DNA of 30,705 nucleotides from a virus. Numbering within the stretch: the first letter of the stretch is position 1; each line of letters opens with the position of its first letter. The notes under the pieces are model-generated. The model saw only the letters and a program-made list of their open reading frames with translations, had not been told where the DNA came from and made no database searches. The translations under genes and the position numbers were made by a program. The stretch spans positions 1 through 30,705 of the IMG/VR virus record IMGVR_UViG_3300047359_000299; one strand, written 5' to 3'. This document shows positions 3,362 to 29,301 of this stretch, piece after piece.

Positions 3362-3386
3362 GGTTTGGAGAGTCTGTATAAGTAGT

Positions 3387-3417: not shown

Positions 3418-3438
3418 CACAATTATAGGAAACAAAAA

Positions 3439-4992: not shown

Positions 4993-5005
4993 TTAGGAGA
5001 AAATG

Positions 5006-5464: not shown

Positions 5465-5470
5465 ATAAGG

Positions 5471-5478: not shown

Positions 5479-5484
5479 ATAGTT

Positions 5485-6347: not shown

Positions 6348-6362
6348 ATAAGGAGTCCTATT

Positions 6363-7385: not shown

Positions 7386-7409
7386 CCCATTAATTCAAGG
7401 AGAATATAA

Positions 7410-8744
7410 ATGGAACTTAACTACGAATCACTGGTAGCCAAGTGGGCACCAGTACTGAACGAAGAAACTGCCGGACCGATCACTGATCAGTACCGTCGTA
7501 AAGTAACTGCTGCTGTTCTTGAATCTCAAGAGAAAGCAATGATCGCTGAAGGCGCTCAGTCACAATTCATGACTGAAACTGCTGCCAACGCTACTCCTGC
7601 TGCTGCTAACTGGGATCCAGTATTGATCTCATTAGTACGTCGTGCTATGCCTAACTTGATGGCATACGACGTTTGTGGTGTTCAACCAATGACTGGTCCT
7701 ACTGGTTTGATCTTCGCTATGAAGAGCAAGTACAAGACTACTCGTGGTGGCGCTACTTCTGGCGACGAAGCACTGTTTGGTGAAGCAATCGCTCCATTCT
7801 CTGGTGACTCTTCTGTTACTCAATCTGGCGGACCTTCTGGTCTTGACGGACTGACTGACTCTAACGGTGACTCTTCAATTGACAACGACCGTACTGGTCC
7901 AACTGTCGGTGGCGGTATGCCAACTGCTGACGCTGAAGCACTCGGAAACACTGGAAGTGACTTCGCTGAGATGGGTTTCACTATCGAGAAAGCAGCTGTT
8001 GAAGCAAAGTCTCGTGCACTGAAGGCAGAGTACACTATCGAACTTGCTCAAGACCTGAAAGCAATCCACGGTCTGGAAGCAGAAGCAGAACTTGCTAACA
8101 TCCTTTCTGTTGAAGTTCTTGCTGAAATCAACCGTGAAGTTATCCGTACTATCAACAGTCAAGCGAAGACTGGTGCCACTACTGCAAACACTGCTGTAAA
8201 CGGTATCTTCGATCTGAGCACTGACGCTGATGGTCGTTGGTCGGTTGAGAAGTTCAAGGGTCTGTTGGTTCAACTTGATCGTGAAGCAAACACTATCGCG
8301 AAGGAAACTCGTCGTGGTAAGGGTAACGTTGCTATCGTCTCTTCTGACGTTGCTACTGCTCTTGTTGCTTCTGGCATGCTTGACTACACTCCAGCAATCT
8401 CTGCTAACTTGCAGGTAGATGACACTGGTAACACCTTCGCTGGTGTACTGAACGGTCGTATGCGCATCTACATCGATCCATATGCTGTTGCTGACTATGT
8501 AACTGTTGGATACAAGGGTACTAACCCATATGACGCAGGTGTTTTCTACTGCCCATACGTACCACTGCAAATGGTTCGCGCTGTTGGCGAGAATGACTTC
8601 CAACCACGTATCGGGTTCAAGACTCGTTATGGTATGGCGTCTAACCCATTCGTTGGTGCTACTCCAGCAAATGGTCTTGCTGCTGCTAAGAGCAACCAGT
8701 ACTACCGCATCATGCGCGTTGATAACCTGATGGTATCTGCGTAA
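7410..8744 (+). CDS. 23: Major capsid protein gp23
   Basis: This HK97-fold shell protein forms the hexamers of the head. It has 444 residues, shorter than T4 gp23 (521) but similar to marine T4-like phages. Clear gp23 segments are PVLISLVRRAMPNLMAYDVCGVQPMTGPTGLIFAMKSKY, EMGFTIEKAAVEAKSRALKAEYTIELAQDLKAIHGL, NREVIRTI and FQPRIGFKTRYGMASNPF. T4 gp23 is cut by gp21 after an (L/I)xE site in its N-terminal region; IAE at residues 45-47 is a plausible equivalent, by inference. A good AAGGAG site precedes the ATG, and a strong terminator follows the gene. It closes the late structural block. Confidence 0.97.
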   Translation: MELNYESLVAKWAPVLNEETAGPITDQYRRKVTAAVLESQEKAMIAEGAQSQFMTETAANATPAAANWDPVLISLVRRAMPNLMAYDVCGVQPMTGPTGLIFAMKSKYKTTRGGATSGDEALFGEAIAPFSGDSSVTQSGGPSGLDGLTDSNGDSSIDNDRTGPTVGGGMPTADAEALGNTGSDFAEMGFTIEKAAVEAKSRALKAEYTIELAQDLKAIHGLEAEAELANILSVEVLAEINREVIRTINSQAKTGATTANTAVNGIFDLSTDADGRWSVEKFKGLLVQLDREANTIAKETRRGKGNVAIVSSDVATALVASGMLDYTPAISANLQVDDTGNTFAGVLNGRMRIYIDPYAVADYVTVGYKGTNPYDAGVFYCPYVPLQMVRAVGENDFQPRIGFKTRYGMASNPFVGATPANGLAAAKSNQYYRIMRVDNLMVSA

Positions 8745-8891: not shown

Positions 8892-9404
8892 ATGAGTAAT
8901 AGTTTAACATCAAACATCAATCTGTTTCAACCTACCGGATTCAAGGTGACTATTGACCGCAAGAACTTCGGCAACCTCGAGTTCTTTGTTCAGTCAGTCA
9001 ACCATCCAGGCGCTTCAAACGCTGCTGTCGAGACTTCGTTCCGACGAGTCGCTGGTGTGCCAATGCCTGGGAATCAAATGCAGTATGGTGAGTTGACAAT
9101 GGAAGTTCTTCTTGACGAAGACCTGAACTCATACACAGAGATGTACAACTGGTTGCTTCGGTTGGTCAACAACGAACAAGTAACGGCACGGGACAACTTT
9201 GCTGGAAAGACTTCCACCGTCCCGACCTTTGCTGACATCCACATCACTGCACTCACTTCCCACAACAACAAGAACAAAATCTTCAAGTACATTGATTGTG
9301 TTCCTGTTTCTGTTGGTGACATACGGTTTGAGGCACAGAACCAATCAGTTGAGTACGTCACTTTCCCTGCGAGTTTTAGGTTTTCTTATTTCGACATAGT
9401 GTGA
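8892..9404 (+). CDS. Tail tube-like (gp19 family) protein
   Basis: This 170-residue protein has the layout of the T4 gp19 tube family rather than of a soluble enzyme: an N-terminal strand pair (FKVTIDRKNFGNLEFFVQSV), a loop segment (HPGASNAAVETSFRRVAGVPMPG), QYGELTMEVLLDEDLNSYTEMYNWL, and closing strands (QSVEYVTFPASFRFSYFDIV). In marine T4-like genomes a small tail protein, sometimes labelled gp3 (tail completion), occupies this place between genes 23 and uvsY. It could be a tube initiator, tube terminator or gp3 equivalent; sequence reading cannot decide. An AGGAAAG site precedes the ATG. Oddly for a virion protein, the visible promoter is sigma70-like and the nearest late block ends at a terminator upstream. 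Confidence 0.72.
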   Translation: MSNSLTSNINLFQPTGFKVTIDRKNFGNLEFFVQSVNHPGASNAAVETSFRRVAGVPMPGNQMQYGELTMEVLLDEDLNSYTEMYNWLLRLVNNEQVTARDNFAGKTSTVPTFADIHITALTSHNNKNKIFKYIDCVPVSVGDIRFEAQNQSVEYVTFPASFRFSYFDIV

Positions 9405-13420: not shown

Positions 13421-13650
13421 TGGGGTTGATAACCATTTATAGTATACCAAACTGTGGTTATTGTATGAAGGCAAAGTCTGTTGCAATAGAACTGGACAAT
13501 CACAACAAGAACTTGGTTGATTGTAATGACCCAGATGCTGATATCAGCAGGGTCAAGCATTCACATACCTTCCCTCAGATTTGGGTCGACGATACCTTCC
13601 TTGGCGGGTACACTGAGTTTGTACAGTGGATACAGGATGAATCATTGTGA
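13420..13650 (+). CDS. Glutaredoxin
   Basis: This is a small thiol-disulfide oxidoreductase, probably serving the phage ribonucleotide reductase or other thiol enzymes, though the substrate is not shown by the sequence. The 76-residue product begins LITIYSIPNCGYCMKAK, with a CGYC active site after the first strand, and has the HTFPQIWVDDTFLGGYTEF segment containing the cis-proline and the GG turn that bind glutathione in glutaredoxins. ATG 13420 stands seven bases from a GGAGG site; a GTG at 13417 is an alternative start. It overlaps gene 47 upstream and gene 46 downstream, so it is locked into the recombination operon between the two subunits of one complex. Confidence 0.88.
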   Translation: MGLITIYSIPNCGYCMKAKSVAIELDNHNKNLVDCNDPDADISRVKHSHTFPQIWVDDTFLGGYTEFVQWIQDESL

Positions 13651-15362
13651 TTAAGTTTAATATAATTCGATATAAGAACTTTCTCTCCACTGGAGACAAT
13701 TGGACAGAGATTGCATTGAATAAATGTAACCATACGCTGATTGTTGGGCAGAATGGTGCTGGTAAGTCCACTATGCTTGACGCCATCTCCTATGGGTTGT
13801 TTGGTAGGTCTCACCGTAATATCAAAAAGGCGCAGTTAATCAACTCCATTAACAACAAAGGCATGCGGGTAGAAGTTGAGTTCGATATTGGTGCCAAATC
13901 ATACAAAGTTGTTCGTGGACTGAAACCTGTTAAGTTCGAGATCTATGTTGACGGTAATATGATCAACCAGAACTCACATAACAAAGAGTACCAGAAAGTC
14001 CTCGAGCAAAACATACTGAAGTTGAATCACAAGACATTCCACCAAGTGGTTGTACTCGGTTCTTCTTCCTTCATCCCGTTCATGCAATTGTCTGCTGTGA
14101 ACCGAAGGGACGTGATCGAAGACCTACTGGATATCGGTGTGTTCTCCAAGATGAACACTATCCTCAAAGAACGCAACTCTGTTCTACGAGAGAAGATCAA
14201 CCAGATATACCACTCAATTGAAATCAATGAGACAAAGACTGAGGCGCAGAAGAAGTACATCCGCGATATGTCTAACATGAACTCCGTTGCCAAGAAACAG
14301 AAAGAGGAGAACATCGAAGAGGCAATGCGTGAAGTCGAGAGACTCGTGAAAGAGAACGCTGAATGTCAGACTCTGGCGTCGGAGATCAGTGAAGAGATTA
14401 CCCCGAAGTTCAAAGAGGCAAACGAGATGCTCGCACAGTTGACCTCGTATGAATCTGAATTCAAAACCAAAATAAAAACTCTTGTGAAGGACACAAAGTT
14501 CTATGAGAACAACGACCACTGCCCGACGTGCGACCAAGACATCGGCGAAGAACTCAAGGAAAGTAAACTCGCCGAAGCAAGGAAGAAGGCATCAGAGTTA
14601 CAATCTGGTGGTGTTAAGGTGCAATCTGAACGAGTCAAAGTCACAGAAACTCTCGAAGAATTGAACCAAAGACAACTGGTTGTTCAAGAGAATCTACAAA
14701 AAGTTCAAGTCAATATACAGACCATACAAACCCACAACTCCAATGCTGATAAGGCGAGAACAGAGATAGAGAATCTCTCTGACTCTCATTCTGACTTGTC
14801 CAAGGCGAACGATGAGTTCGATGTACTGACCAAGGAATATCACGCACTGATCGATAGTCGTAACAGTATGACAGACCAATCCGCGTACAACTCTGTTGTC
14901 TCTGAGATGTTGAAGGATACTGGTATCAAGACCAAGGTGATCAAGCAGTACCTGCCTGTCATCAATAAGATGGTCAATCAGTACCTGTCTATCCTTGACT
15001 TCTACGTGCACTTTGATCTTGATGAGAAGTTCGAAGAGACTATCCGTTCGCGTCACCGTGACTCGTTCTCGTATGACTCTTTCTCTGAAGGCGAGAAGCA
15101 GCGCATTGACTTGGCGCTTCTGTTCTCTTGGAGACAAGTTGCCAAGATGAAGAACTCTATCAGCACCAACCTGTTGATCCTAGACGAGACTTTCGACTCT
15201 TCTCTGGACGAAGCAGGGATTGATAACCTGATGAAGATTATCCACACCCTCGGCGACGACACAAACGTGTTCATTATCTCTCACAAAGGCGAGATGCTGG
15301 ATGGTAAGTTCGAGTCCAAGATCGAGTTCGTCAAGAAGAAGAACTTCTCTACTATAAAATGA
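13647..15362 (+). CDS. 46: Recombination endonuclease subunit gp46 (Rad50-like)
   Basis: This SMC-type ATPase partner of gp47 has 571 residues (T4 560). Walker A GQNGAGKS is at residues 34-41, followed by KKAQLINSINNKG and VVVLGSSSFIPFMQLSAVNRRDVIEDLL, close to T4. The coiled-coil arms are interrupted by a zinc hook CPTC at 292-295. The C-terminal lobe has the signature SFSEGEKQRIDLALLF near residue 478 and Walker B NLLILDETFDSSLDEAG near 508. The start is GTG 13647, overlapping the glutaredoxin stop. Its TGA overlaps the ATG of the next gene. Confidence 0.96.
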   Translation: MIKFNIIRYKNFLSTGDNWTEIALNKCNHTLIVGQNGAGKSTMLDAISYGLFGRSHRNIKKAQLINSINNKGMRVEVEFDIGAKSYKVVRGLKPVKFEIYVDGNMINQNSHNKEYQKVLEQNILKLNHKTFHQVVVLGSSSFIPFMQLSAVNRRDVIEDLLDIGVFSKMNTILKERNSVLREKINQIYHSIEINETKTEAQKKYIRDMSNMNSVAKKQKEENIEEAMREVERLVKENAECQTLASEISEEITPKFKEANEMLAQLTSYESEFKTKIKTLVKDTKFYENNDHCPTCDQDIGEELKESKLAEARKKASELQSGGVKVQSERVKVTETLEELNQRQLVVQENLQKVQVNIQTIQTHNSNADKARTEIENLSDSHSDLSKANDEFDVLTKEYHALIDSRNSMTDQSAYNSVVSEMLKDTGIKTKVIKQYLPVINKMVNQYLSILDFYVHFDLDEKFEETIRSRHRDSFSYDSFSEGEKQRIDLALLFSWRQVAKMKNSISTNLLILDETFDSSLDEAGIDNLMKIIHTLGDDTNVFIISHKGEMLDGKFESKIEFVKKKNFSTIK

Positions 15363-16107: not shown

Positions 16108-17502
16108 ATGGAACATGTAACGATTGGCGGTCGACCTTGGCAGAAGTTCAAGGGTGATGAGGGGCAAGACGTTTACGTCGCTCTGTTCACTGAAGACCAG
16201 TCAGAACTTCTTGGGCAGTATGCAACTGAAGACTCTTATGATATGGTCGTCGATTCAGATGCAGACTTCTACTTGCCTTCTGGTGGTATGGAAGAAGAAC
16301 CACTGGACGAGGAGCGTATCGCGTTCAAATTCCGCAAAGGCGTCTTCACCCAAGAAGAACAGTTGGGTGCATATGAAGGTTTGTACGGTGCCGCTATTGA
16401 ATCAAATAACCGTGGTCTAGCAGCAGGTCCAAGAGAGGACTCGCAAGGCAACCGTGACTGGGTGACTACATACCAATCGAATGTCCTTGGTTGGTATGAG
16501 CAAGGACAACCGCCAAACATTGACGGTTCCGATCCTCTCGCTGAGTTTGCTGCACAACAAGTAGACGACGAGATTCGTGGCGGTGTTTGGTTGCGCACTA
16601 AGGTTGAACCAGAGTTCGGATCGTACAAGGAGTTCTTTCCGATACTTGAAGCAAAGATAAAAGGGATGAGTCTTGAAGATGCTGCGTTATATGCTAAAGA
16701 AATTAGAATGGATTTTATTTCGGATACATCTTATGCTACTGCTATTTGGAGCGGTATTGCTGGTTTCTATGGTCGCTATCCTCGCATTCCTTACGGTAGG
16801 GCCACTGCATATACTGATCATCACCGAGAAACATTTGAGAAGTGCTATGCGTTTGCACGGAAGTTGGAACAAACTTTTAAAGAGTTACTTCCAGTCCGGC
16901 ATCAACGCCAGCAAGAGTTTGCTGACAAGGTTGACCCGAAGTTCCTGATCGCCGAAGACACAACCTTCACTACCATCACTGTCAATACCACCAGCAAAGA
17001 CCGCAATGCTCGCATGGCGTGTCACCGTGACGCTGGTTCTCTGAACGAAGGGTTCTCCAACCTGACGGTGATAAGTGACGGCAAGAAAGACTGGAAGGGT
17101 GGATACCTTGTCTGTCCCGAAGTCCGTGCTGCTATCAATGTGCGTCCAGGCGATCTACTGCTCGTTGACAACATGCGAGTCATTCACGGTAACACCCCGA
17201 TTGAAGCACCTGACACTGGTGTGGATGATCTGCTGCGTATGTCCCTCGTGTTCTACTTCCGAGAGGACATGGCGAAGTTGGGCACTTGGGAATATGAGCA
17301 CCTGCGCCGTGCCTACGTCGACTCTCGCCGCAAGAACGAAGAACACAAACTGTGGCGACCATATTGGAACGGAGTGTCGCCTTCTATGTGGGGTGAACAA
17401 GAGTGGTACGATTGGTTGACAGTTGAAGGTGGTGAGTCTATGGTCCGTCAATACCACCCTGAAGCATTTGAAGTTGCTGGATCACTAGAGGACTTCTTCT
17501 AA
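16108..17502 (+). CDS. TET/JBP-family 2OG-Fe(II) dioxygenase (DNA base hydroxylase)
   Basis: This is predicted to oxidise the 5-methyl group of a pyrimidine in DNA (5-methylcytosine or thymine). The dioxygenase domain is in the C-terminal half of 464 residues: FTTITVN near 287, CHRDAG with Fe ligands His306 and Asp308, WKGGYLVCPE near 329, INVRPGDLLL, the distal ligand in VIHGNTPI (His360), and RMSLVFYFRED with Arg377 for 2-oxoglutarate. The 'HxD...GG.LV.PE...GD...HGN.PI...R.SLV.Y.RE' series is that of TET/JBP proteins, not of generic prolyl hydroxylases. The N-terminal ~200 residues are not recognised and may be a substrate or DNA-binding part. It ends AGSLEDFF, a possible sliding-clamp-binding tail. 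It is first in a five-gene overlapping operon. No cytosine methyltransferase lies in the window. Confidence 0.85.
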   Translation: MEHVTIGGRPWQKFKGDEGQDVYVALFTEDQSELLGQYATEDSYDMVVDSDADFYLPSGGMEEEPLDEERIAFKFRKGVFTQEEQLGAYEGLYGAAIESNNRGLAAGPREDSQGNRDWVTTYQSNVLGWYEQGQPPNIDGSDPLAEFAAQQVDDEIRGGVWLRTKVEPEFGSYKEFFPILEAKIKGMSLEDAALYAKEIRMDFISDTSYATAIWSGIAGFYGRYPRIPYGRATAYTDHHRETFEKCYAFARKLEQTFKELLPVRHQRQQEFADKVDPKFLIAEDTTFTTITVNTTSKDRNARMACHRDAGSLNEGFSNLTVISDGKKDWKGGYLVCPEVRAAINVRPGDLLLVDNMRVIHGNTPIEAPDTGVDDLLRMSLVFYFREDMAKLGTWEYEHLRRAYVDSRRKNEEHKLWRPYWNGVSPSMWGEQEWYDWLTVEGGESMVRQYHPEAFEVAGSLEDFF

Positions 17503-18182
17503 TGTGTGGTGTACTTGCTGTTAGTATGAAAGGTGTCTCTGTTAGGGATCTGGAACAGATCAGGAACCTGTTTATACAATCTATGATCAGGGGCAAACAT
17601 GCAACTGGAGTTACATACTATAAAAATGGCGAGTTACATACAATCAAAGAACCCATAACTGCTATGCAGTTTATGTCCAAGTACGACCCTCAAGACTTTG
17701 TAGATGAGAATGGAGATGTGACCCTCATCGGACACACTCGGTACTCAACGTCAGACCGCAAACACAACCAACCCTTCCAAGGTGATAAAATCTCCATTGC
17801 ACACAACGGTGTTATCTCACAAGACCCAGAAGTTTGGGAGTATGAGACAGAGACACGTAATGACTCTGAGTTGATCTTGCGTTGTATAGAAAATGGTGAC
17901 AACCCTGTCGAAGTCTACAAGAAACGCAGCATGGCATGTGTTGCTATTGAACTGGAAAATGGGTCTCCCTTCCTTCGCGCATGGCGTAACCGAGAAAGAC
18001 CTTTATGGTACTTCAGCAAGTTGCGGAATGTAGTGTTTGCATCTACTTCTGACATACTGAAGCGTTCCGGTTTTGATGAATCACATACTCGGACTACTCC
18101 GTTGATCGAATATAACTGGCGCGGTGAATGTGTCCAAGATCAAAGTTCTTATGACCCAGAGTTGAAGGATCTGCAACCATGA
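17502..18182 (+). CDS. Class II glutamine amidotransferase domain protein (stand-alone)
   Basis: This Ntn-hydrolase-type glutaminase releases ammonia from glutamine for a partner enzyme. The nucleophile is Cys2, exposed after removal of Met1 (MCGVLAVS). Other class II signatures are RGKHATGV (30-37), GHTRYST (77-83), HNQPF (88-92), AHNGVI (100-105) and TRNDSELI (118-125). It has 226 residues, just the glutaminase domain; the synthetase domain found in GlmS, PurF or AsnB is missing. Ammonia or a glutamine-derived amide must therefore be passed to another protein, most simply one of the operon partners. Its ATG overlaps the stop of the TET/JBP-like gene by one base and its end overlaps the next gene (ATGA). 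Confidence 0.88.
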   Translation: MCGVLAVSMKGVSVRDLEQIRNLFIQSMIRGKHATGVTYYKNGELHTIKEPITAMQFMSKYDPQDFVDENGDVTLIGHTRYSTSDRKHNQPFQGDKISIAHNGVISQDPEVWEYETETRNDSELILRCIENGDNPVEVYKKRSMACVAIELENGSPFLRAWRNRERPLWYFSKLRNVVFASTSDILKRSGFDESHTRTTPLIEYNWRGECVQDQSSYDPELKDLQP

Positions 18183-18823
18183 TTCGATACACGCAAGAAC
18201 AAGTTGAGAAGTTGCTAGAGACACAACCAGAGGGCACGAATACAAAGTTCCTCAAGTCCTCGCACAACCTGTGGTTTAGGTTCAAGAACTACGTGAAGAA
18301 CCCTCCATTTGTGTTAGAGGACGCTGGAGTACCTGTTGCTCTGGTGTTCATTACTTTCTCGCAACGGTCCAAGTATGCTAACCTGTACGAGATCGTCACC
18401 CTTGAGGGCAAGGAAGGTTGTGGATATGCTTCTGAGGTTTACTGGGAAGTTATGAAGGCAGCACACGAGGCGGGTATGGAGAGACTGAAGATGTCTTGTA
18501 CTCCATCCTCTGTGACTTGGCACAAGCGCAACGGTACAATCTTCTGGGCAGTTGACCCTTCTGGTTCCCTGCGCGTCGACCAACCTCTGTTCCCTACCAT
18601 ACAAGAGCAACTCGCCTTCCGTGAGAGGGCAGTCAATGACCCATCAATCTCCCTGCCTGTCACAAAGGTTCTTGACAAACTGAAGGAAGAGGGCGTTGAG
18701 TCTCATGGGTTTGGGCAGAAGAAAATTGACAAGGTTGAAACTGCCATAAGTTCGGTCGGCGAATACTGGTTGCGCCATGCTCTATTTGAACCAACGCACT
18801 ACTCGTTGGACGCTTTCCTGTGA
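18179..18823 (+). CDS. GNAT-like acyltransferase
   Basis: This 214-residue protein has a GNAT-type core: a strand pair (PVALVFITFSQRS, ANLYEIVTLEG), an acetyl-CoA loop-like KEGCGYASEVYWEVMKAAHEAGM, a strand (RLKMSCTP), then WHKRNGTIFWAVDPSGSLRVDQPLF, resembling the closing strands of GNAT enzymes that carry a 'fyek.Gf.fw' segment. GNAT proteins are known partners in phage DNA base-modification clusters, where they may acylate an amine on a base; that role is inferred here from context. The C-terminal third is helical and ends HYSLDAFL, another possible clamp-binding tail. It overlaps both neighbours (ATGA upstream, GTGA downstream). Confidence 0.7.
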   Translation: MIRYTQEQVEKLLETQPEGTNTKFLKSSHNLWFRFKNYVKNPPFVLEDAGVPVALVFITFSQRSKYANLYEIVTLEGKEGCGYASEVYWEVMKAAHEAGMERLKMSCTPSSVTWHKRNGTIFWAVDPSGSLRVDQPLFPTIQEQLAFRERAVNDPSISLPVTKVLDKLKEEGVESHGFGQKKIDKVETAISSVGEYWLRHALFEPTHYSLDAFL

Positions 18824-19806
18824 GCGAAGAAACATTTATAAAGTGGTTTGGTCGAGGTCTTGAGATACAAGACGTTGACCCTGCCCTAGATATGTCGAAC
18901 TATTTCTTCAACCGTTTTGAGTACAACTCAGAACAACAACTTTGGATAACATGGATCTATGGCACCACATATCATTGGCCCACTGCTTATGTCATTTGGA
19001 ATGAGTTTCCTGATATGGAACTCGTCGGAGTGGAACGTCTACGGGATTGGAATAATTCTAATTACTCTCGTCTTCGTTATCAAACTGATACTAAATGGAA
19101 TAAAGGACACCTCGCAGACCAATTCATATCATATAAACAGTTTGTCGGAGGAAGACCCCAAAGAGAAGCACTGACGGAAAACTTCGTCGGCGACCCTGTT
19201 AAGGATTTCTACACTCTCTGGGATACTATCAACAACCTACACAAGTTTGGTCGATACACTTCTTGGTTCTATATTCAAGCACTCAAACAGACATGCAATA
19301 TTCCTGTCGACGTAGACAGTCTCTGGTTGCACGACTACAGTGGTTCCAAGTCGCACCGTAATGGTCTGTGTTATGCAGTTGGTAAACCTGAGTGGGTTGA
19401 CAGTAAGGCGAACCGAGTCAAACTCGACGCCACACAGATTGACTTCCTTGAGGGCAAAGGTCGAGAGATGCTTGAAGAAGTTAAACTCCGATATCCCCAC
19501 GTTGCTGACAAGGCAGACTTCTTCGCTATGGAGACATCTCTCTGCTCGTTTAAGAAGTTGTTTCGCCGCAGTCGTGGGCGATACCTTGGATACTACCTTG
19601 ACCGCCAAGCAGAGGAGATCAACAAAGTCGCCGCTGATAAGTGGGATGGCATTGATTGGCAACCTCTTTGGGACTCGCGCAATGAAGTGGTTGACTTTTC
19701 ATGGTTAATGGGTAGAATAGATTCTAATCTATACAATATCTTTCTCGACACAGGTGACTTTGAACCTCGTGATAGAGGAACAGGACTTGAGGAGTTCTTC
19801 GTATGA
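18820..19806 (+). CDS. Putative DNA base-modifying enzyme (possible alpha-glutamyl/putrescinyl thymine pyrophosphorylase-like)
   Basis: This 328-residue helix-rich protein is rich in Trp, Tyr and Arg. Notable segments are NYFFNRFEYNSEQQLWITW with IYGTTYHWPTAYVIWNEFPD after it, FVGDPVKDFYTLWDTINNLHKFGRYTSWFYIQAL, WLHDYSGSKSHRNGLCYAVG, and ETSLCSFKKLFRRSRGRYLGYYLDRQAEEI. The '(FGRYTSW)...L' helix pair and its place next to a P-loop kinase recall the glycosylase-related pyrophosphorylase families that install amines on hydroxymethylated bases in phage DNA. This is an inference, not a firm match. The start is GTG 18820, overlapping the upstream stop. The protein ends GTGLEEFFV, like the tails of gp55 and of the TET/JBP-like protein. 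Its TGA overlaps the kinase start. If it is not a pyrophosphorylase, it is an unrecognised DNA-modification partner. Confidence 0.55.
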   Translation: MSEETFIKWFGRGLEIQDVDPALDMSNYFFNRFEYNSEQQLWITWIYGTTYHWPTAYVIWNEFPDMELVGVERLRDWNNSNYSRLRYQTDTKWNKGHLADQFISYKQFVGGRPQREALTENFVGDPVKDFYTLWDTINNLHKFGRYTSWFYIQALKQTCNIPVDVDSLWLHDYSGSKSHRNGLCYAVGKPEWVDSKANRVKLDATQIDFLEGKGREMLEEVKLRYPHVADKADFFAMETSLCSFKKLFRRSRGRYLGYYLDRQAEEINKVAADKWDGIDWQPLWDSRNEVVDFSWLMGRIDSNLYNIFLDTGDFEPRDRGTGLEEFFV

Positions 19807-20342
19807 AAGTGATCTATCTTATTGGAGTCCCAGGGACTGGTAAGTCTACCATTATCAAAGAGTACATGAAGCATGCCGATTGGAAAACAGAACGTCCTAT
19901 CGACCTGCTTGATACTCACGTCTGTGGTGCTATTCGTATTCTTGGTAAGTACGAGGAAGGCGAGACATTCAGTGGCACTGATAGACTCAGCATGGCAGTA
20001 GCGCCAAAGGCAATTGAGTGGATCTCTACCAAACCAGATGAACTCATCATCGGTGAAGGTGATCGCTTGAACAACGCAGGTTTCTTTGAAGCATGTGGTG
20101 ACTCACTGACAATCATCCACCTAACCGTTTCTGATGCCGAACGTGAACGTCGGTACAAGGAACGTGGTTCTGACCAGTCTGAGAAATTCATCCAGACTAC
20201 ACGCACCAAGTGCGCCAACATCGTTGAAAAGTTCGGCGATCAACAAACTCTGTTCGGAGAGGAGAAAGGTTGCATCGTTGAAATGCCACACGAAACTCCA
20301 GAAGACACAGAGGAGATAATCAACTTCATCCTAACCTGTTGA
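19803..20342 (+). CDS. P-loop kinase (candidate hydroxymethyl-base DNA kinase)
   Basis: This is a 179-residue nucleotide-kinase-like P-loop protein. Walker A is GVPGTGKS at residues 8-15. DELIIGEGDRL (around 78) supplies a Walker B-like strand, HLTVSDAERERRYKERGSDQSEKF is a lid-like arginine-rich segment, and the C-terminal helix EEIINFILTC closes the fold. Kinases of this size work next to pyrophosphorylases in phage thymidine hypermodification, phosphorylating the hydroxymethyl group on the base; the same job fits here, by context only. Its last codon and stop (TGTTGA) are the first six bases of promoter repeat copy A, so its end was probably shaped by that cassette. It ends the five-gene operon. 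Confidence 0.7.
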   Translation: MKVIYLIGVPGTGKSTIIKEYMKHADWKTERPIDLLDTHVCGAIRILGKYEEGETFSGTDRLSMAVAPKAIEWISTKPDELIIGEGDRLNNAGFFEACGDSLTIIHLTVSDAERERRYKERGSDQSEKFIQTTRTKCANIVEKFGDQQTLFGEEKGCIVEMPHETPEDTEEIINFILTC

Positions 20343-20412
20343 TTTGCTTCAAGTTATTCAGGTTTGTCTTTGGACGTGATCTGACCGATAATAGTATCTG
20401 AATTGAGGAGAA
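20337..20412 (+). repeat. Promoter cassette repeat, copy A
   Basis: This 76-base element is almost identical (two mismatches by eye) to copy B at 21332-21407 and shares its second half with copy C at 23709-23752. It contains, in order, TGTTGA (used as the Cys-stop end of the upstream kinase gene), a -35 TTGTCT (20364-20369), a 17-base spacer, a -10 GATAAT (20387-20392), and GAGGAGAA as ribosome binding site for the ATG at 20417. In this copy AACCTG (20333-20338) and CAGGTT (20359-20364) can pair around the first part, as a weak hairpin. Confidence 0.85.
20364..20392 (+). promoter_or_regulatory. Sigma70-like promoter in repeat copy A
   Basis: TTGTCT, 17-base spacer, GATAAT, then AGTATC. It serves the gene at 20417 and probably the small membrane-protein genes up to 21337. 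Confidence 0.68.
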
Positions 20413-20416
20413 GAAT

Positions 20417-20692
20417 ATGACAGATTCAAATTCGTGGTATGGCACTCGTCCATACACCAGTGACACCCAAGTGCATGTTGTATGGTTATGCCAGCGCGAT
20501 GAACCGAACTTAATGGTCGGCACCTTCGCCACGTTCGAAAGGGCGGAGCAAGAAGTTGAGTGGATCGCTGATGCGGTCAGAAACCAGACCAGTATGAACA
20601 CCCTCGTCACAGACTTTCACTCCGTTGAAGATCTTGTCGAAGGCACTGTCTCTTCAAGCACATTCATCCAAACTGTTCCTGTAAAGATTTGA
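20417..20692 (+). CDS. Small protein of unknown function
   Basis: The 91-residue product has one strand-helix unit (TQVHVVWLCQRDEPNLMVGTF, ERAEQEVEWIADAVRNQ) and a hydrophilic C-terminal part. No family is recognised. The start is firm because GAGGAG from the repeat cassette stands just upstream. It is the first gene behind promoter copy A and precedes three very small membrane or leftover genes. Confidence 0.65.
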   Translation: MTDSNSWYGTRPYTSDTQVHVVWLCQRDEPNLMVGTFATFERAEQEVEWIADAVRNQTSMNTLVTDFHSVEDLVEGTVSSSTFIQTVPVKI

Positions 20693-21300: not shown

Positions 21301-21337
21301 AATTCCCATCAAGGTTTTATCTTCCGTAAGTTGTTGA
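21287..21337 (+). pseudogene. Truncated gene start running into promoter repeat B
   Basis: A textbook ribosome binding site (AAGGAG, 21274-21279) stands seven bases before ATG 21287, but the frame (MKKTEIPIKVLSSVSC) ends after 16 codons. Its TGT TGA end is the first six bases of repeat copy B. The kinase gene at 19803 ends in the same way in copy A. The reading frame looks like the 5' stub of a gene whose remainder was replaced when the cassette arrived; it could also be a functional micropeptide. Confidence 0.4.
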
Positions 21338-21407
21338 TTTGCTTCAAGTTATTCAGGTTTGTCTTTGGACGTGATTTGAACGATAATAGTATCTGAATTG
21401 AGGAGAA
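21332..21407 (+). repeat. Promoter cassette repeat, copy B
   Basis: This is the 76-base counterpart of copy A: TGTTGA stop, AT-rich lead, promoter (TTGTCT 21359-21364, GATAAT 21382-21387) and AGGAGAA ribosome binding site before ATG 21412. Upstream it shares GTAAGTTGTTGAT (21326-21338) with copy C (23676-23688). Copies B and C directly flank the zinc-peptidase/VWA gene. Confidence 0.85.
21359..21387 (+). promoter_or_regulatory. Sigma70-like promoter in repeat copy B
   Basis: TTGTCT, 17-base spacer, GATAAT, then AGTATC, identical over its whole length to copy C. It serves the VWA protein gene at 21412. Confidence 0.68.
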
Positions 21408-21411: not shown

Positions 21412-23679
21412 ATGTCTACACCTAACAAAACCGCCCTAGCAAAACTGCTCGCCACCGAGAATATTACGGTGCAACAGCAGAACGTCAGGACTGCGAGTTT
21501 CGATGTTAAAAATCGTGTACTCACCCTGCCAATCTGGGCAACCGAAGACAAGCACGTTGAAGATCATATGACCGGACACGAAGTTGGTCACGCACTCTTC
21601 ACTCCACTCGAAGGATGGCACGACGCTGTCTGTTCAAAGGGTGCTGCATTCAAATCCTACCTAAATGTTGTAGAAGACGCACGGATCGAGAAACTGATCC
21701 AGCGAAAGTACCCTGGCCTGCGCTCTTCATTTATCAAGTCGTACCGCAAACTTCTCGCTGATGGATTCTTCGGCGCTGACATTGAGACCATCAATGATAT
21801 GGGTTTGATTGACCGCATTAACACTTACTTCAAGTGTGGTGTATCTTCTGGTATCAAATTCGCTGCTGAAGAACGTGTCTGGATTGACCGCATTGATGCT
21901 GCTGAGACTTGGGAGCAAGTTGTACAAATCTCCGAAGAGTTATTTGCCTCTGAGAAACAGAAGGCAGAAGAGAATAAGGAAGACGAGCAAGACGGTGATC
22001 AAGACTCAGACGACGACAACGACGACGAGTCAGACACTGAAGGATCTAATTCATCCGGTGAGTCGGGAGAGCAAGAAGATCTTTCGGAAGAGTATGACGA
22101 GGATGACTCAGACAATTCTGGTCAAGGTGAATCTTCTGACGAGTTCGACGAACTCTTCGACGATCAAGAAGAGTATTCTCAGGGTCAAGAAGGTGGACGT
22201 CACGAAGATTCAGATATTGCATCTCAGACAGACGAGAACCTTCGTAATGCCATGGATGATATGGTACAGGTGGACGACGGATATACAAAATACCACACTG
22301 TCCGACTTATCAAAGAGAACACAGACCACCGAGTAGTCGACACCAAGAGAGTCATGTCCGTTCTCAGCAAGGGAAATGTCGGGTGGTATGGTGAACGTGA
22401 TCGAGCACAAGAACACCGTGACCACGGGAAACAATTAGCAGCGAACCTCTACAGCAGATGGTACAAGGACAACAAGAAGTCTGTGCAAACCATGGTCAAA
22501 GAATTCGAGATGAGAAAGTCTGCTTCTGAATACCAGAGGACTAAACTCTCTCGCACGGGATCGCTTGACACTGTGAAGATGAACAACTACAAGATCACAG
22601 ACGATATCTTCCGCAAAGTCTCTGTTGTGCCTGAAGGCAAGAACCACGGATTCATTATGATGTTGGATATGTCAGGGTCTATGCAAGAGCAGTTCTATGC
22701 AGTTGCACAGCACACCATCTTGATGGCAGCGTTCTGTCGACAGATCAACGTCCCCTTCCGAGTGTATGGTTTCATTGATTACCTACATGAAGGCGCAGCG
22801 GAGGGAGACAAACCCAGAAATGCTGGCGACTTGCTCTCTGATTCAGAATCGCAATTGTTGGAACTCTTCAACGAGAAGATGTCAAAGACCCAGTTTTCCT
22901 CGATTGCTGGCGAACTAATGCTGTTCGGTGAGTCATTGTCATATCGTCGTTTCTATAACGGCAAAGTTACAAACAGCAGACTGACTTATGACGAGCAGGC
23001 ATCTCTGCGTAATGATGTGGTCTCAAATATCTTTAATCTGGGCGGCACTCCTCTTGATTCTTGCATCATTACCTTGATCCCTCAAGCACTGGAATTCAGA
23101 AAGCAGAACCGACTGGACAAGTTGCACACTATCTTCTTGACAGATGGCGCTTCTCACACTGCACTCTATGAGGATTTTGCTAGCACCCCAGATTCGCGAC
23201 TCAGTCGACACTTAGACGGATTGCAAGCATACGGTCGAAACAAAATATCTGTTATCAATGAATACAACAACCAGACATACAAGTTCTCTTCCTCGTCTGC
23301 TGCTTCAACCGAGTGTTTCTTGGAGATGTACAAGGACGCCACTGGATCTGACAACATGGGTTACTTTGTATATTCTGGCAAGAGTGCCAACAATGGCGTC
23401 CATGCTGCCTCTAGATTTTCTGGTGTACGTTACTCCTATGATCATGCTGCAACCCTTCGGTCTAAGTTTAACCGTGGCGAGCATGTTGAGGTAAAAGCGT
23501 CAGGGTATGACACCATGTACGTTGTAAGCGGCAAAGGTTTGGAGCGTAATGATTCTGCCATGAATGATGTGACTTCAGAGTCGAGCAAAGCAAAACTCCG
23601 AAGCGCATTCAAGAAGTCTGGGCGGGTCAACGCTGGCAACCGCGCCATGCTGATCAGTATAGTGAAGGCAGTAGCGTAA
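21412..23679 (+). CDS. VWA-domain protein with N-terminal zinc-peptidase motif (CobT-like)
   Basis: This 755-residue protein has three parts. The N-terminal part carries GHEVGHALFTP (His56-Glu57...His60) and NVVEDARIEKL (Glu88), the HExxH plus downstream Glu pattern of gluzincin metallopeptidases. A very acidic, low-complexity linker spans about residues 182-265. The C-terminal half is a von Willebrand A domain with a MIDAS motif MLDMSGSM (Asp419, Ser421, Ser423), a later GGTPLDSCI, and an ILFLTDG-like IFLTDGAS. In marine phages such proteins are often called cobalamin-biosynthesis CobT, but the HExxH points to a protease or protein-remodelling role with the MoxR/CobS-like ATPase encoded next. 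ATG 21412 is used with AGGAGAA upstream; a TTG at 21409 is possible. Target unknown. Confidence 0.82.
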   Translation: MSTPNKTALAKLLATENITVQQQNVRTASFDVKNRVLTLPIWATEDKHVEDHMTGHEVGHALFTPLEGWHDAVCSKGAAFKSYLNVVEDARIEKLIQRKYPGLRSSFIKSYRKLLADGFFGADIETINDMGLIDRINTYFKCGVSSGIKFAAEERVWIDRIDAAETWEQVVQISEELFASEKQKAEENKEDEQDGDQDSDDDNDDESDTEGSNSSGESGEQEDLSEEYDEDDSDNSGQGESSDEFDELFDDQEEYSQGQEGGRHEDSDIASQTDENLRNAMDDMVQVDDGYTKYHTVRLIKENTDHRVVDTKRVMSVLSKGNVGWYGERDRAQEHRDHGKQLAANLYSRWYKDNKKSVQTMVKEFEMRKSASEYQRTKLSRTGSLDTVKMNNYKITDDIFRKVSVVPEGKNHGFIMMLDMSGSMQEQFYAVAQHTILMAAFCRQINVPFRVYGFIDYLHEGAAEGDKPRNAGDLLSDSESQLLELFNEKMSKTQFSSIAGELMLFGESLSYRRFYNGKVTNSRLTYDEQASLRNDVVSNIFNLGGTPLDSCIITLIPQALEFRKQNRLDKLHTIFLTDGASHTALYEDFASTPDSRLSRHLDGLQAYGRNKISVINEYNNQTYKFSSSSAASTECFLEMYKDATGSDNMGYFVYSGKSANNGVHAASRFSGVRYSYDHAATLRSKFNRGEHVEVKASGYDTMYVVSGKGLERNDSAMNDVTSESSKAKLRSAFKKSGRVNAGNRAMLISIVKAVA

Positions 23680-23681
23680 GT

Positions 23682-23752
23682 TGTTGATATTGCAGGAGTT
23701 TTTTAGTATTGTCTTTGGACGTGATTTGAACGATAATAGTATCTGAATTGAG
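23682..23752 (+). repeat. Promoter cassette repeat, copy C (partial)
   Basis: The last 44 bases (23709-23752) are identical to copy B. The first part keeps GTAAGTTGTTGAT (23676-23688) and the same total length, but the middle differs. The ribosome-binding part has changed to GAGTGAAA, so the downstream gene uses another site (AAAGG at 23763-23767) and ATG 23775. Confidence 0.8.
23709..23737 (+). promoter_or_regulatory. Sigma70-like promoter in repeat copy C
   Basis: TTGTCT, 17-base spacer, GATAAT, then AGTATC. It serves the AAA+ ATPase gene at 23775. Sharing one promoter sequence means the ATPase and the VWA/zinc-peptidase protein are likely made at the same time and level. Confidence 0.68.
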
Positions 23753-23774
23753 TGAAACAGTAAAGGTTTATATT

Positions 23775-24959
23775 ATGAGTAAAGCACAACAGTTAGTCGA
23801 TATCTTCGCAGGTATCTTGGGTGATGAACCCCAAACGGTCTCCAAAGACGAGATCAAACGTGTCGCCAAACAGAATGGCATTAATTCCCTGTATCGCATT
23901 CTGAATGCGAACAACGTCGCCGAGAATGGCGAGTATCATTTCCCGCCTATGGGCAAGTCTAGTGGCAGCAGTACCCGATCTGCGCCTCGTGCCCCGAAGG
24001 TTGTTATCTCTGCGCCTGTCGCGCAGGCAGCACCTCAACCTGTGGTTTCCCTCGGTGCTAACAGTGACGGATTCACTGCTGACCTCCGACCCTCTGTTGA
24101 CCCCCTGTATGTGCCCTTCGGCAACTTCAAGACGGTCAACCAGATCATCAAGTCTGGCATGTTCTACCCTATGTTCATCACTGGATTATCTGGTAACGGT
24201 AAAACGTACATGGTCGAACAGGCATGTGCCAAGGCGAAGCGTGATATGATCCGTGTCAACTTCACAGTCGAGACCGACGAAGATGACTTGATTGGTGGTT
24301 TCCGTCTGGTCGACGGTGACACCAAGTTCTTCAAAGGTCCAGTGATCAAAGCAATGGAACAGGGTGCAGTCCTGCTGTGCGACGAGATTGACCTCGCCAA
24401 CCCTGCCAAGGTTATGTGCTTGCAGTCTATCCTTGAGGGCAAGGGTTACTTCATCAAGAAGACTGGCGAGTACATTCAACCCGCCGCAGGATTCACCGTG
24501 GTCTCTACTGCTAACACCAAGGGACAGGGTTCAGATGACGGTCGATTCATCGGTACGAACATCTTGAATGAAGCGTTCCTTGAGCGTTTCCCTGTGACCG
24601 TTGAACAACAGTACCCTTCCATCTCTATTGAGAAGAAGATTCTCGAGAAGGTTGCAGTATCCCTCGACCACGACAACGATGACTCTTTCGAGTTTATCGC
24701 CAAGTTGGTGGACTGGGCAGATATTATCCGTAAAACTTTTATGGATGGTGGCGTAGACGAGATCATCTCGACTCGCCGACTGGTACACATCATCAAAGCA
24801 TATACGATTTTCAATGACCGTATGACTGCGATCGAGATGTGTACCAACCGTTTCGACGAAGAGACCAAACTCTCTTTCGCTGACTTGTACTCCAAGTTAG
24901 ACGAAGCGGTTGCACAAGAGTCGACAGAAGAGACTTCGTCTGACCAGTTGACTTCTTAA
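23775..24959 (+). CDS. MoxR/CobS-like AAA+ ATPase
   Basis: This 394-residue ATPase is of the MoxR/CobS type, whose members work with VWA-domain partners to remodel proteins or insert metal. The N-terminal ~35 residues form a small helical unit (VSKDEIKRVAKQNGINSLYRIL), then a Pro/Ala-rich linker. The AAA+ core has Walker A GLSGNGKT at 137-144, FTVETDEDDLIGGFRL, Walker B VLLCDEIDLANPAK near 199, sensor 1 STANTKG near 251, and an STRRLVHIIKAY sensor 2-like segment. It is the 'cobS' gene of many cyanophage annotations, but no cobalamin gene surrounds it. ATG 23775 is chosen over TTG 23748, with AAAGG eight bases upstream. The zinc-peptidase/VWA gene upstream is its likely partner. Confidence 0.88.
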   Translation: MSKAQQLVDIFAGILGDEPQTVSKDEIKRVAKQNGINSLYRILNANNVAENGEYHFPPMGKSSGSSTRSAPRAPKVVISAPVAQAAPQPVVSLGANSDGFTADLRPSVDPLYVPFGNFKTVNQIIKSGMFYPMFITGLSGNGKTYMVEQACAKAKRDMIRVNFTVETDEDDLIGGFRLVDGDTKFFKGPVIKAMEQGAVLLCDEIDLANPAKVMCLQSILEGKGYFIKKTGEYIQPAAGFTVVSTANTKGQGSDDGRFIGTNILNEAFLERFPVTVEQQYPSISIEKKILEKVAVSLDHDNDDSFEFIAKLVDWADIIRKTFMDGGVDEIISTRRLVHIIKAYTIFNDRMTAIEMCTNRFDEETKLSFADLYSKLDEAVAQESTEETSSDQLTS

Positions 24960-25017: not shown

Positions 25018-25116
25018 ATGAAAAGAATTATCCTACAAATTATTTCCACTGAGGGGTTGACATCCAATTCCCGTTGGTGCATAATAGAGTCTGTTGTCAC
25101 GAGGAGAAACATATGA
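25018..25116 (+). CDS. Possible leader peptide overlapping the gene 45 start
   Basis: ATG 25018 stands six bases after AAGGA and opens a 32-codon frame beginning MKRIILQIIS and ending in TGA (25114-25116), which overlaps the gene 45 ATG (25113). Such an arrangement allows translational coupling or attenuation of sliding clamp synthesis from the upstream promoter at 24948. The main gene 45 promoter (25057-25085) lies inside it, so it is read only from upstream transcripts. It has no recognisable family and may be chance. Confidence 0.25.
   Translation: MKRIILQIISTEGLTSNSRWCIIESVVTRRNI
25057..25085 (+). promoter_or_regulatory. Sigma70 consensus promoter for gene 45
   Basis: A perfect TTGACA, 17-base spacer and CATAAT followed by AGAGTC, the same extension as at the gene 55 promoter. 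It lies 27 bases before the sliding clamp ATG (25113). Confidence 0.8.
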
Positions 25117-25787
25117 AACTAAACGATTCAACTATGGCGGTTCTAAAGAACTTTGCTACCATTCAACCTAACATCATCTTGACCGAAGGTAACGTAATCC
25201 GGACTATCGCTGAAGCGAAGAACGTCATGGCAGTTGCTAACCTTGAGCAGTCTTTCGACAAGACTGTCGGTATCTACGAACTTGACCAGTTCCTTGCTGT
25301 ACTTGGTCTTGTTGACGATCCCGATCTTGAGTTCAACGAAGAGTTTGTGACAGTGCAATCTGGCGCTGGTCTCTCTTCAGTTAAATACTTCTACAGTGAT
25401 GCAAACATCTTGACTACGCCTACAAAGGACATTCCTATGCCCGAAGCAGAAGTCAAGTTCACTCTGTCAGAAAGTACACTGAACCGAGTTCGCCGTGCTG
25501 CTGCTGCACTATCTCACGAGAAGATGACAATTACTGCATCTGATGGTGCTATCAAACTGACTGTTGTAGATAATTCAGACAGCACCTCTAACGCATTCGA
25601 GATTGTTGTGCCTGGATCTTTCGACTCAGACGACTTCACCTTTGTGATGAACATTGCTAACCTGAAGTTGATCGGTGGTGAGTATGACGTTGAGATCTCT
25701 TCTCGTCTAATCTCTAAATTCACTAACACTGTCGCGGGTGTATCATACTACATCGCCCTCGAGAAATCATCAACCTATGGAGCATAA
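25113..25787 (+). CDS. 45: Sliding clamp gp45
   Basis: This trimeric DNA clamp gives processivity to the polymerase and, in T4, also activates late transcription by binding gp55 and gp33. It has 224 residues (T4 228). MKLNDSTMAVLKNFATIQPNIIL, VGIYELDQFLAVLGLVDDPDLEF, the central FTLSESTLNRVRRAAAAL, and the ending VSYYIALEKSSTYGA line up with T4 gp45. ATG 25113 is chosen (GAGGAG upstream, exact MKL start); the frame is open to a GTG at 25074, which has no ribosome binding site and lies before the predicted transcript start. Partners carrying putative clamp tails are described under gp55 and the modification operon. Confidence 0.95.
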   Translation: MKLNDSTMAVLKNFATIQPNIILTEGNVIRTIAEAKNVMAVANLEQSFDKTVGIYELDQFLAVLGLVDDPDLEFNEEFVTVQSGAGLSSVKYFYSDANILTTPTKDIPMPEAEVKFTLSESTLNRVRRAAAALSHEKMTITASDGAIKLTVVDNSDSTSNAFEIVVPGSFDSDDFTFVMNIANLKLIGGEYDVEISSRLISKFTNTVAGVSYYIALEKSSTYGA

Positions 25788-27379: not shown

Positions 27380-28579
27380 ATGAAACTTGCAGTCACAGGG
27401 GTTGGGATTGTCTCTCCCCTCGGTAGTAACCTGACAGAGAATATGAACAACCTTCTTGCTATGAAGGTTGGATCCTCTCCGAACAACGTCCCCTTCGATA
27501 ACCTATCCTCCGAGTTGATCAAGAGCACAAAGATGTTCTATGCCGACTACACAGAGGAGCAGGCAAGGCAGCACATCTCGGCGAAGGACTATCGGTTCGC
27601 AGACCCAACTGTCAGAACTAGTATGATGGCAGTCTCTGAGGCGATACGCCAAAGCGGTGATGACCTACCCAAAGACACTCCTGTTATCATCGGTACCATA
27701 CAGGGCGGTATCACCTCATACTGTGGTTGGGTTGATAAACTCTCCCGAAAGGTGTCAACTAAGGTGCACCCCAAGGTTTTACTCAGTAGTTCGAACGAAC
27801 ACCTCGGCAATCTCATCTCTGAGAAATACCAGATACACGGTCCAACCATGTCGGTCGCAGCAACTTGTATCAGTGGTGTCCAAGCACTCTCCATTGGTAA
27901 GATGTTTTTAGACACTGGCATTGATCGTTGCATTGTTGGCGCAACTGACCACATGACTGCTTCTGTGTCGATGTACTACTTCGAACAACTTGGTGCCCTC
28001 AGTCCTACCTCAGAGGTTAGACCGTGGGACGCTTCTCGCAACGGCACTGTCATGGGAGAAGGTAGTGTGTATTTGGTCATTGAACCTCTCCACAAGGCAC
28101 GTGCTCGTCAGGCAGATATCCGCTGGGTCATCGATGGTATAGGTATTGCCAGTGACGCTGGACACCCAACTTCTCCAGACCCAGATGGCGTCGGTGGCAA
28201 AATAGCAATCAACATGGCAACCAAGCAAGCAGGAACCAAAAAGTACCCTGTGTTGAATGGGCATGGCACGGGCACCTCTATCGGAGACCCGATAGAGTAT
28301 GATGTTCTGTCATCCCAATTGGAACAAGCATACCTCTACAGCAACAAAGGTCAGATTGGTCACATGATGGGTGCTTCTTGCCTCGCCGAGTTGGCATTGG
28401 GTGCTGAGTCTATGTTACTTGATGTCGTTCCTGGGAATGCTGGACTCGAGCAACCATTCACTGAAGATGGGCGATTAGTTTTCACCCAAGACCCAATCAA
28501 ACTCCAGTACGACAGATTCCTCAAGACCAGTTTTGGTTTCGGTGGTCGTTGCTCAGCGGTGAGTGTATGTAAAGTATGA
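27380..28579 (+). CDS. Beta-ketoacyl-ACP synthase (FabF/KAS II-like)
   Basis: This thiolase-fold condensing enzyme normally extends acyl chains using malonyl-ACP in fatty acid or polyketide synthesis. The 399-residue product is of usual length. The KAS II catalytic triad is intact: Cys163 in VAATCISGVQA, His295 in NGHGTGTSIGDPIEYD, and His328 in GQIGHMMGAS. The N-terminal MKLAVTGVGIVSPLGSN and the C-terminal TSFGFGGRCSAVSV are typical. No acyl carrier protein or other fatty-acid gene is visible here, so it would act on host ACP. It overlaps the glycosyltransferase gene after it (ATGA at 28576-28579), which suggests a shared product such as an acylated glycan, lipid or DNA modification; this is inference. 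The ribosome binding site is weak. Confidence 0.9.
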   Translation: MKLAVTGVGIVSPLGSNLTENMNNLLAMKVGSSPNNVPFDNLSSELIKSTKMFYADYTEEQARQHISAKDYRFADPTVRTSMMAVSEAIRQSGDDLPKDTPVIIGTIQGGITSYCGWVDKLSRKVSTKVHPKVLLSSSNEHLGNLISEKYQIHGPTMSVAATCISGVQALSIGKMFLDTGIDRCIVGATDHMTASVSMYYFEQLGALSPTSEVRPWDASRNGTVMGEGSVYLVIEPLHKARARQADIRWVIDGIGIASDAGHPTSPDPDGVGGKIAINMATKQAGTKKYPVLNGHGTGTSIGDPIEYDVLSSQLEQAYLYSNKGQIGHMMGASCLAELALGAESMLLDVVPGNAGLEQPFTEDGRLVFTQDPIKLQYDRFLKTSFGFGGRCSAVSVCKV

Positions 28580-29301
28580 TCACTCTCTGTGTTCCATACT
28601 ACGAAGACCCACACCGCCTATATGCATTGCTTCACAATGAGTGGTTGTCTTGGTTCGATGAAGTAATTATCGTTGACGATGCTTCCTCTGATTTCCCAGC
28701 ATTACCTATCGTCGAGAATTGTATCTCTGATGGACTGATCGTTGGGGCAGACAGGATCTCCTTATACAGAATACAGGAGGACTATGGGTTCAATGCACAC
28801 GGTGCCAGAAACCTAGCAGCGCAACTGGCAAAGAATGAATGGTTGTTCTTCCACGACATCGATATGATAATGGACGAAGACTTTATTCAAGAACTGTCAG
28901 ACAAAGTCTCGCAAGCACAAGGTGAGTTCGTCGTCTGTAGAGTATTTGGCGGGGATCCTGGGAATATATTTGCCGTGCGTAAAGAGGATTTCTTTGACGC
29001 TGGTGGGTATGACGAGGAGATACGCGGATACCACATGGGCGACAAGTTGTTCCGTGAGAGACTCGAACAGATATGCAAACCTGTCCTGATGGATGCTGAC
29101 TTGCCTTGTGACAGGATGGGTCGAAACGTACACGTAGATGATAAGATAATTGGAACCTTGTACCCAGATGATAAGTCAGTCGTACAGCGTTCACAGAACC
29201 ACATACAAGACATACTAGAGATGATACAGAGGAGAAACGCCAATCCTAAAGAATGGAAGAAAATACCCCACATACAGTTTGACTGGAAGCGGGAATTGTA
29301 G
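28576..29301 (+). CDS. Family 2 glycosyltransferase
   Basis: This 241-residue GT-A transferase has TLCVPYYEDPHRL at the N-terminus, the nucleotide-binding EVIIVDDASSDFP (Asp34-Asp35), GARNLAAQLAKNEWLFFHDIDMIMDEDF with a DxD at 94-96, and FDAGGYDEEIRGYHMGDK, the acceptor-site 'GG(F/Y)DE' segment of GT2 enzymes. It has no membrane span. It is translationally coupled to the ketoacyl synthase. The gene 44 promoter lies over its last codons. Acceptor unknown: DNA carrying a hydroxymethyl group, or a glycan. Confidence 0.86.
   Translation: MITLCVPYYEDPHRLYALLHNEWLSWFDEVIIVDDASSDFPALPIVENCISDGLIVGADRISLYRIQEDYGFNAHGARNLAAQLAKNEWLFFHDIDMIMDEDFIQELSDKVSQAQGEFVVCRVFGGDPGNIFAVRKEDFFDAGGYDEEIRGYHMGDKLFRERLEQICKPVLMDADLPCDRMGRNVHVDDKIIGTLYPDDKSVVQRSQNHIQDILEMIQRRNANPKEWKKIPHIQFDWKREL

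Follow-up and report, generated by a model that had tools for sequence, protein, structure and literature searches.

The gene pair and its promoter repeats

The window analysed here is the whole of a virus contig of 30,705 bases (IMG/VR record IMGVR_UViG_3300047359_000299) whose genes are those of a marine T4-like phage, and this study concerns two adjoining genes on its plus strand, one for a protein that joins a putative zinc peptidase site to a VWA domain and one for a MoxR/CobS-like AAA+ ATPase. The pair is not new: it corresponds to PHROG 459 and PHROG 249, is core in marine T4-like phages and has an architecture that is already published, so that what the window adds is a diverged member.

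The first gene (21412-23679, ATG start) encodes a CobT-related protein of 755 residues that matches PHROG 459, labelled 'peptidase', over its full length (E 3.6e-171, residues 5-755 of 755 on profile positions 6-736 of 736). Its zincin-like N-terminal domain (residues 1-199, 21412-22008), delimited from an AlphaFold2 model and from invariant columns, carries the motif HEVGH at residues 56-60 (21577-21591) and, 28 residues after His60, the invariant Glu88 (21673-21675) within NVVEDARIE (residues 85-93), which is the probable third zinc ligand. There follow an acidic, disordered linker of about residues 197-270 (22000-22221), where the predicted local distance difference test score (pLDDT) falls below 50 for residues 199-263, and a VWA domain of about residues 410-655 (22639-23376). 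The latter, recognised from invariant residues and Foldseek matches, has DMSGS at residues 419-423 and the full metal ion-dependent adhesion site (MIDAS) set of D419, S421, S423, T546 and D578.

The second gene (23775-24959) encodes an ATPase of 394 residues, assigned to PHROG 249 (E 1.2e-118) and to the Pfam family AAA_5 (E 2e-18), with the Walker A motif GLSGNGKT (24183-24206) and a Walker B motif containing D203 and E204 (24381-24386). Across 11 homologues K143, D203/E204, N247, R271 and R334/R335 are invariant, and the marks of a MoxR-type AAA+ protein are all present (AAA_5/AAA_3 match, Walker A, Walker B, sensor asparagine and arginine finger). In the PDB the protein resembles CobS, NorQ and midasin, one midasin module being matched with E 4e-39; midasin identity was nevertheless rejected, as the ATPase has a single AAA module in 394 residues and midasin six such modules and a MIDAS in one giant chain.

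A repeat search revealed an 81-base repeat with three plus-strand copies in the window, one before the peptidase-VWA gene (21327-21407), one before the ATPase gene (23677-23757) and a third, the most upstream (20332-20412), before a small open reading frame at 20417-20692 which has no family match and may belong to the same regulon as the pair. The exact 44-base core, at 20364, 21359 and 23709, occurs nowhere else in the window (chance expectation 0.00), and the two copies upstream of the pair genes are identical. Both contain TTGTCT-17-GATAAT (21359-21387 and 23709-23737), which resembles a sigma-70 promoter, and a motif scan found no late-type ATAAATA just upstream of either gene; together these point, weakly, to expression in the early or middle phase.

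The preliminary description of this locus had named the peptidase motif, the downstream VVEDARIE glutamate, the acidic linker and the VWA domain with intact MIDAS in one 755-residue chain, the MoxR/CobS-like neighbour, and an identical promoter repeat before both genes. The translation and an alignment of 80 homologues, the family and PDB matches of the ATPase, and the exact repeat core bear out all of this, the third repeat copy coming in addition.

Conservation and predicted fold of the N-terminal domain

When viral contigs were searched with an alignment as query, 590 encoding stretches were obtained and 80 loci kept; a single-protein query gave two loci. In the resulting 80-row alignment, which has a mean column identity of 31%, 35 columns are invariant, and H56, E57, H60, E88, D89 and R91 of the N-terminal domain are present in 80/80 homologues, as are the five MIDAS residues. 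All intact relatives in viral contigs keep the N-terminal HExxH, the downstream acidic motif and D-x-S-G-S in the VWA domain. Among 60 N-terminal domains mixed from two distant lineages (15-66% identity to the first), eight columns remained invariant, namely P40, H56, E57, H60, N85, E88, D89 and G102, a pattern that fits a functioning metal site with a general base. Because the HExxH site is kept in every intact viral relative and is found among these eight columns, we do not attribute it to chance, and the domain probably holds a gluzincin-type peptidase site.

AlphaFold2 gave a pLDDT of 79 for the whole protein and, for the N-terminal domain alone, a pLDDT of 90.2 with a predicted template modelling score of 0.85. 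The domain was modelled separately because a full-length Foldseek search against the PDB was swamped by VWA domains. The model runs from three short strands to helix 47-63, which bears HExxH, and helix 78-99, which bears Glu88. Its best seven PDB matches are all zincin metallopeptidases or their relatives (ArdC at the top, with selecase, abylysin and PprI), with weak E-values of 0.15-2, and lend support to a peptidase fold, short of proof. The structure prediction that the preliminary description had proposed, run on residues 1-199, thus gave a confident model with both expected helices and zincin matches that are weak. Among predicted viral structures the domain found close relatives and CobT/VWA proteins of uncultured Caudovirales and haloarchaeal viruses (E <1e-3 to ~4e-3), as well as a Gordonia phage protein (E 0.015). 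The CobT structures 9uka and 21vu were absent from the fold matches, their presence in that structure library being uncertain. For the VWA half, Foldseek returned VWA folds including that of NorD within NorQ-NorD complexes, in which NorQ is a MoxR protein.

Relation to CobT and CobS

The window protein matches neither of the CobT families PF06213 and PF11775. Its relatives in other phages do: the SSU5 phage protein, with HEVAH in the motif, matches both (E 2e-37 and E 3e-112, respectively), and the protein of Roseobacter phage CRP-810, with HEAGH, matches PF06213 (E 2e-15). In hhalign comparisons the T4-like N-terminal domain aligned with the SSU5-type domain (probability 98.5%, E 4e-15) and the latter with cellular CobT (88%, E 3.5e-6), the zinc motif being in register. 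The direct comparison of the T4-like domain with cellular CobT was not significant (probability 1.3%, E 0.04), so the homology rests on the SSU5-type bridge, and no significant hit came from four genomes with CobT when the T4-like profile was run against them. Judged through that bridge, the N-terminal domain is truly homologous to that of CobT.

Canonical cellular CobT has no HExxH in its N-terminal domain, with 0/80 in a first scan and 0/30 in a wider draw of the phylum (0/110 in total); one match in each set (L173 and L293) was judged from sequence and position, not from start-codon mapping, to be an upstream extension of the open frame. Divergent bacterial PF06213 members with an intact HExxH do exist (L309, L310, L311, L313, L314 and L315), L314 alone having a CobS-like ATPase nearby. 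In the haloarchaeal virus HVTV-1 the corresponding gene is gp57, with HECGH and AEDGAIE; gp103 and gp104 proved unrelated. In a tree of the VWA region, which is unrooted and has long branches, canonical CobT and its nearest relatives form one clade without HExxH (17 rows, support 100/100); five changes of HExxH state suffice and at least three are forced, the state being strongly clustered. As repeated gain of a homologous HExxH and glutamate across many lineages is hard to envisage, the simpler reading is that canonical cellular CobT lost the site and that viral members mostly retain it.

These relations bear on a published proposal, according to which the 'peptidase' label is a mistake for CobT and the pair is a viral cobaltochelatase, CobST, that borrows host CobN to raise cobalamin production (PMC8651126). 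The homology of the N-terminal domain speaks for it, as does the resemblance of the ATPase to CobS. On the CobS equivalog TIGR01650, however, the ATPase scores 81.1 bits (E 8e-23) against a cut-off of 558.55, far short of it; the HExxH conserved in phages is never found in canonical cellular CobT, so that a conserved catalytic site would sit idle; and relatives of the pair are carried by Escherichia, Salmonella, Klebsiella and Pelagibacter phages. These hosts are not known to have the aerobic CobN route. A PF02514 profile search for CobN found no match in the 30.7 kb contig, a virus fragment whose host is not identified. Since the CobS cut-off is missed, the catalytic site would idle and the hosts are not known to have the route, we consider cobalt chelation highly improbable; by the tests made here the window protein is CobT-related and not a cobaltochelatase. 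The surmise that CobT/CobS are probably misnomers is supported as regards function, cobaltochelatase being a poor label, and too strong as regards descent, the names having a basis in homology. Likewise, the claim that no cobalamin genes surround the pair agrees with the negative CobN search, with the qualification that the gene at 15359-15892 matches PHROG 2954, labelled 'ferrochelatase' (E 1e-33), a label that is uncertain as no Pfam family was matched.

In a search of the same kind, the control genome of Caulobacter vibrioides gave a CobT-family match and no CobN-family match; perhaps a cellular CobT can occur where cobaltochelatase is absent, or else CobN escaped the search in that genome. 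A literature search on SAR11 cobalamin auxotrophy found nothing citable.

Gene pairing and neighbourhood

The ATPase gene lies directly 3' of the peptidase-VWA gene in all loci with room for it (63/63) and in 73 of the 77 loci of the SSU5-type set, and tblastn against marine cyanophage records returned equal counts for both proteins (365 Synechococcus, 61 Cyanophage and 24 Prochlorococcus); cobS is listed in the cyanophage core (PMC3037559). As a separate observation, a conjugative IncC plasmid (L181, 3812-5699) has a CobS-like ATPase gene beside ssb, bet and exonuclease genes, and the adjoining gene, without known role, contains no VWA motif.

In the window the pair is placed between gp46 (13647-15362) and the sliding clamp gene gp45 (25113-25787), the position that it also occupies in annotated marine T4-like genomes; in T4-like loci generally, gp46 is upstream in 44/59 and gp45 downstream in 34/41. 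In the SSU5-type set dnaE lies no more than 5 kb downstream in 68/74 loci, and in ICP2 a primase and a replicative helicase are encoded close to the pair, while the CRP-810 and Gordonia pairs have no such replication-gene neighbourhood. Taken together, the neighbourhood suggests a role in the replication phase. A literature search on the transcript timing of cyanophage cobS found no paper.

The main competing explanation is that the machine serves virion assembly or maturation, helping to build the particle and cleaving structural proteins. Such a role was proposed in 2021 for the MoxR and metallopeptidase-VWA pair of group 2.2 jumbo phages (ASV44729/ASV44728), which has the same architecture, and the same paper reports that a MoxR-VWA pair of an archaeal virus is needed for tail assembly (PMC7824862). 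In the present material, by contrast, the genes stand in the replication/recombination module of T4-like phages, or by dnaE in the other lineage, and away from the structural block of the window (270-8744; tail sheath, tail tube, portal, gp21-type protease, scaffold and major head protein by family matches). The prohead protease gp21 has a gene of its own (5682-6347), and the promoters are sigma-70-like with no late-type motif just upstream. We therefore regard a virion role as unlikely, although it remains the foremost competitor.

The preliminary description had suggested a host defence protein as a target. A peptidase destroying a defence or regulatory protein of the host would have precedents in the SprT-like and ArdC-like zincin peptidases discussed in the context of phage-host conflict (PMC7824862), and ArdC is the structure most similar to the N-terminal domain. 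Nevertheless, marine T4-like phages consistently carry the pair and at a fixed place, in contrast to the patchiness expected of counter-defence genes, and the pair is a core element of the replication/recombination module and not of a variable island; no defence-like neighbours were identified around it. The suggested target is thus not upheld, and counter-defence or host takeover appears improbable.

A candidate replication-phase peptidase machine

Because of the gp46/gp45, dnaE and ICP2 contexts and the sigma-70-like promoters, we prefer the reading that the pair is an AAA+-driven, VWA-directed zinc peptidase acting in the replication phase of the phage, and we think this probable, albeit with considerable reserve. 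The MoxR/CobS-like protein would assemble into an ATP-driven ring, on which the VWA domain would dock via its MIDAS while recruiting or presenting a protein substrate, and the gluzincin-like domain of the same chain would cut the substrate so presented, with HExxH and Glu88 holding a zinc ion and Glu57 activating a water molecule. The most likely target would belong to the apparatus of replication, recombination or late transcription, or the machine may clear protein off phage DNA. Sequence and prediction establish the intact and invariant motifs, the modelled fold, the motifs of the ATPase, the strict pairing and the genomic setting.

Several points weigh against this proposal. Zinc binding, proteolysis, the contact between ring and VWA domain, the substrate and the timing are all inferred; the promoters were assigned by consensus matching; the PDB fold matches of the N-terminal domain have weak E-values; and the neighbourhood is suggestive, with loci within each lineage not independent. 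In addition, Stenotrophomonas phage ANB28, Pseudomonas phage nickie and an Acinetobacter plasmid have relatives that keep the VWA domain and the ATPase without the peptidase site, and in a Methylobacterium plasmid relative the entire N-terminal domain is gone. As such relatives retain AAA+/VWA, the peptidase would seem to be dispensable to the machine in some lineages. These losses, and the fact that cellular CobT works without the site, are what one would expect if the N-terminal domain did not cut at all and instead bound metal or a partner, the machine being a chaperone and the conserved site structural or regulatory. Yet the general base E57, which mere metal binding would not need, is invariant in both the 80/80 and the 60/60 sequences, and we consider a non-cutting domain quite unlikely.

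On a broader scale, one may speculate that the replication-phase peptidase is an ancient AAA+/VWA zinc-protease machine common to tailed viruses of bacteria and archaea, acting at the replisome or on DNA by processing proteins or removing them, and that CobT descended from such a protease through loss of its active site; this we put forward as a tentative idea, conceivable and well short of probable.

The question matters as viral ecology now treats the pair genes as vitamin B12 'auxiliary metabolic genes'. If the replication-phase reading is true, the B12 inferences drawn from them would fail for hundreds of phages, and abundant ocean viruses would have a core function still to be explained. 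Canonical CobT would carry an inactivated version of a peptidase domain that viruses kept intact, a notion that bears on the conflict between published accounts and lends itself to direct testing, for which SSU5-type relatives found in E. coli K-12 provide a laboratory system.

Other features of the window

Family matches also identify UvsY, a DNA helicase, a late sigma factor, gp47 and a clamp loader in the window. Directly upstream of the pair, the gene run at 16108-20342 resembles a DNA base-hypermodification operon, with a Tet/JBP oxygenase (E 1e-15), a class II glutamine amidotransferase, a weakly matched GNAT protein, an amino acid:DNA transferase ADDT (E 7e-24) and a P-loop nucleotide kinase 3 (E 3e-18). 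Between clamp and clamp loader, at 27380-29301, a FabF-like beta-ketoacyl synthase (E 7.5e-27) is followed by a family 2 glycosyltransferase, an unusual cargo for a T4-like phage. The tail tube family PHROG 45 is matched by two distinct proteins (2825-3361, E 2e-59; 8892-9404, E 1.5e-27).

Comparison with known systems

The closest counterparts are the marine T4-like genes of PHROG 459, 'peptidase', and PHROG 249, 'porphyrin biosynthesis' (T4-GC 146 and 150), which correspond in full-length match, gene order and gp46-gp45 position. From these the window pair differs in that the nearest annotated isolates share 31-35% identity with its peptidase and in that it adjoins a base-modification gene cluster. 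SSU5-type phages and phage-plasmids, RHph_X66, ICP2 and the haloarchaeal HVTV-1 share the HExxH N-terminal domain, acidic linker and VWA domain, with the AAA+ gene adjacent or nearby; these belong to other phage lineages, have a dnaE or primase neighbourhood and include members that lost the site.

In NorQ-NorD, RavA-ViaA and other MoxR-VWA chaperones, a MoxR ring likewise works with a VWA/MIDAS partner; we know of no peptidase domain in that partner. For NorQ-NorD the structures are PDB 9qh6 and 9qhd. DUF2201 proteins of bacterial chromosomes (PF13203 with PF09967) also combine an N-terminal HExxH domain, an acidic linker and a C-terminal VWA-like domain; membership of this family was rejected, as the window protein has no PF13203 match and no hhalign relation (one sequence compared) and the motif after HExxH differs.

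Aerobic CobT/CobS (PF06213/PF11775, TIGR01650; PDB 9uka, 21vu) is distantly homologous in N-terminal domain, VWA domain and AAA+ module and has the acidic linker as well, whereas cellular CobT is without HExxH and partners CobN, and the window ATPase fails the CobS cut-off. The jumbo phage pair, likened here by description and not by direct alignment, has the same architecture, a MoxR ATPase being joined by a VWA protein whose N-terminal part is a metallopeptidase domain; virion assembly was proposed there, in contrast to the replication-phase context found here. Judged from the sequences, the namings in PMC7824862 and PMC8651126 are thus each half right, the protein being CobT-related with its peptidase site intact, and the value of the present analysis lies in reconciling these two published readings and in a hypothesis, open to test, about two genes that are core to abundant marine phages.

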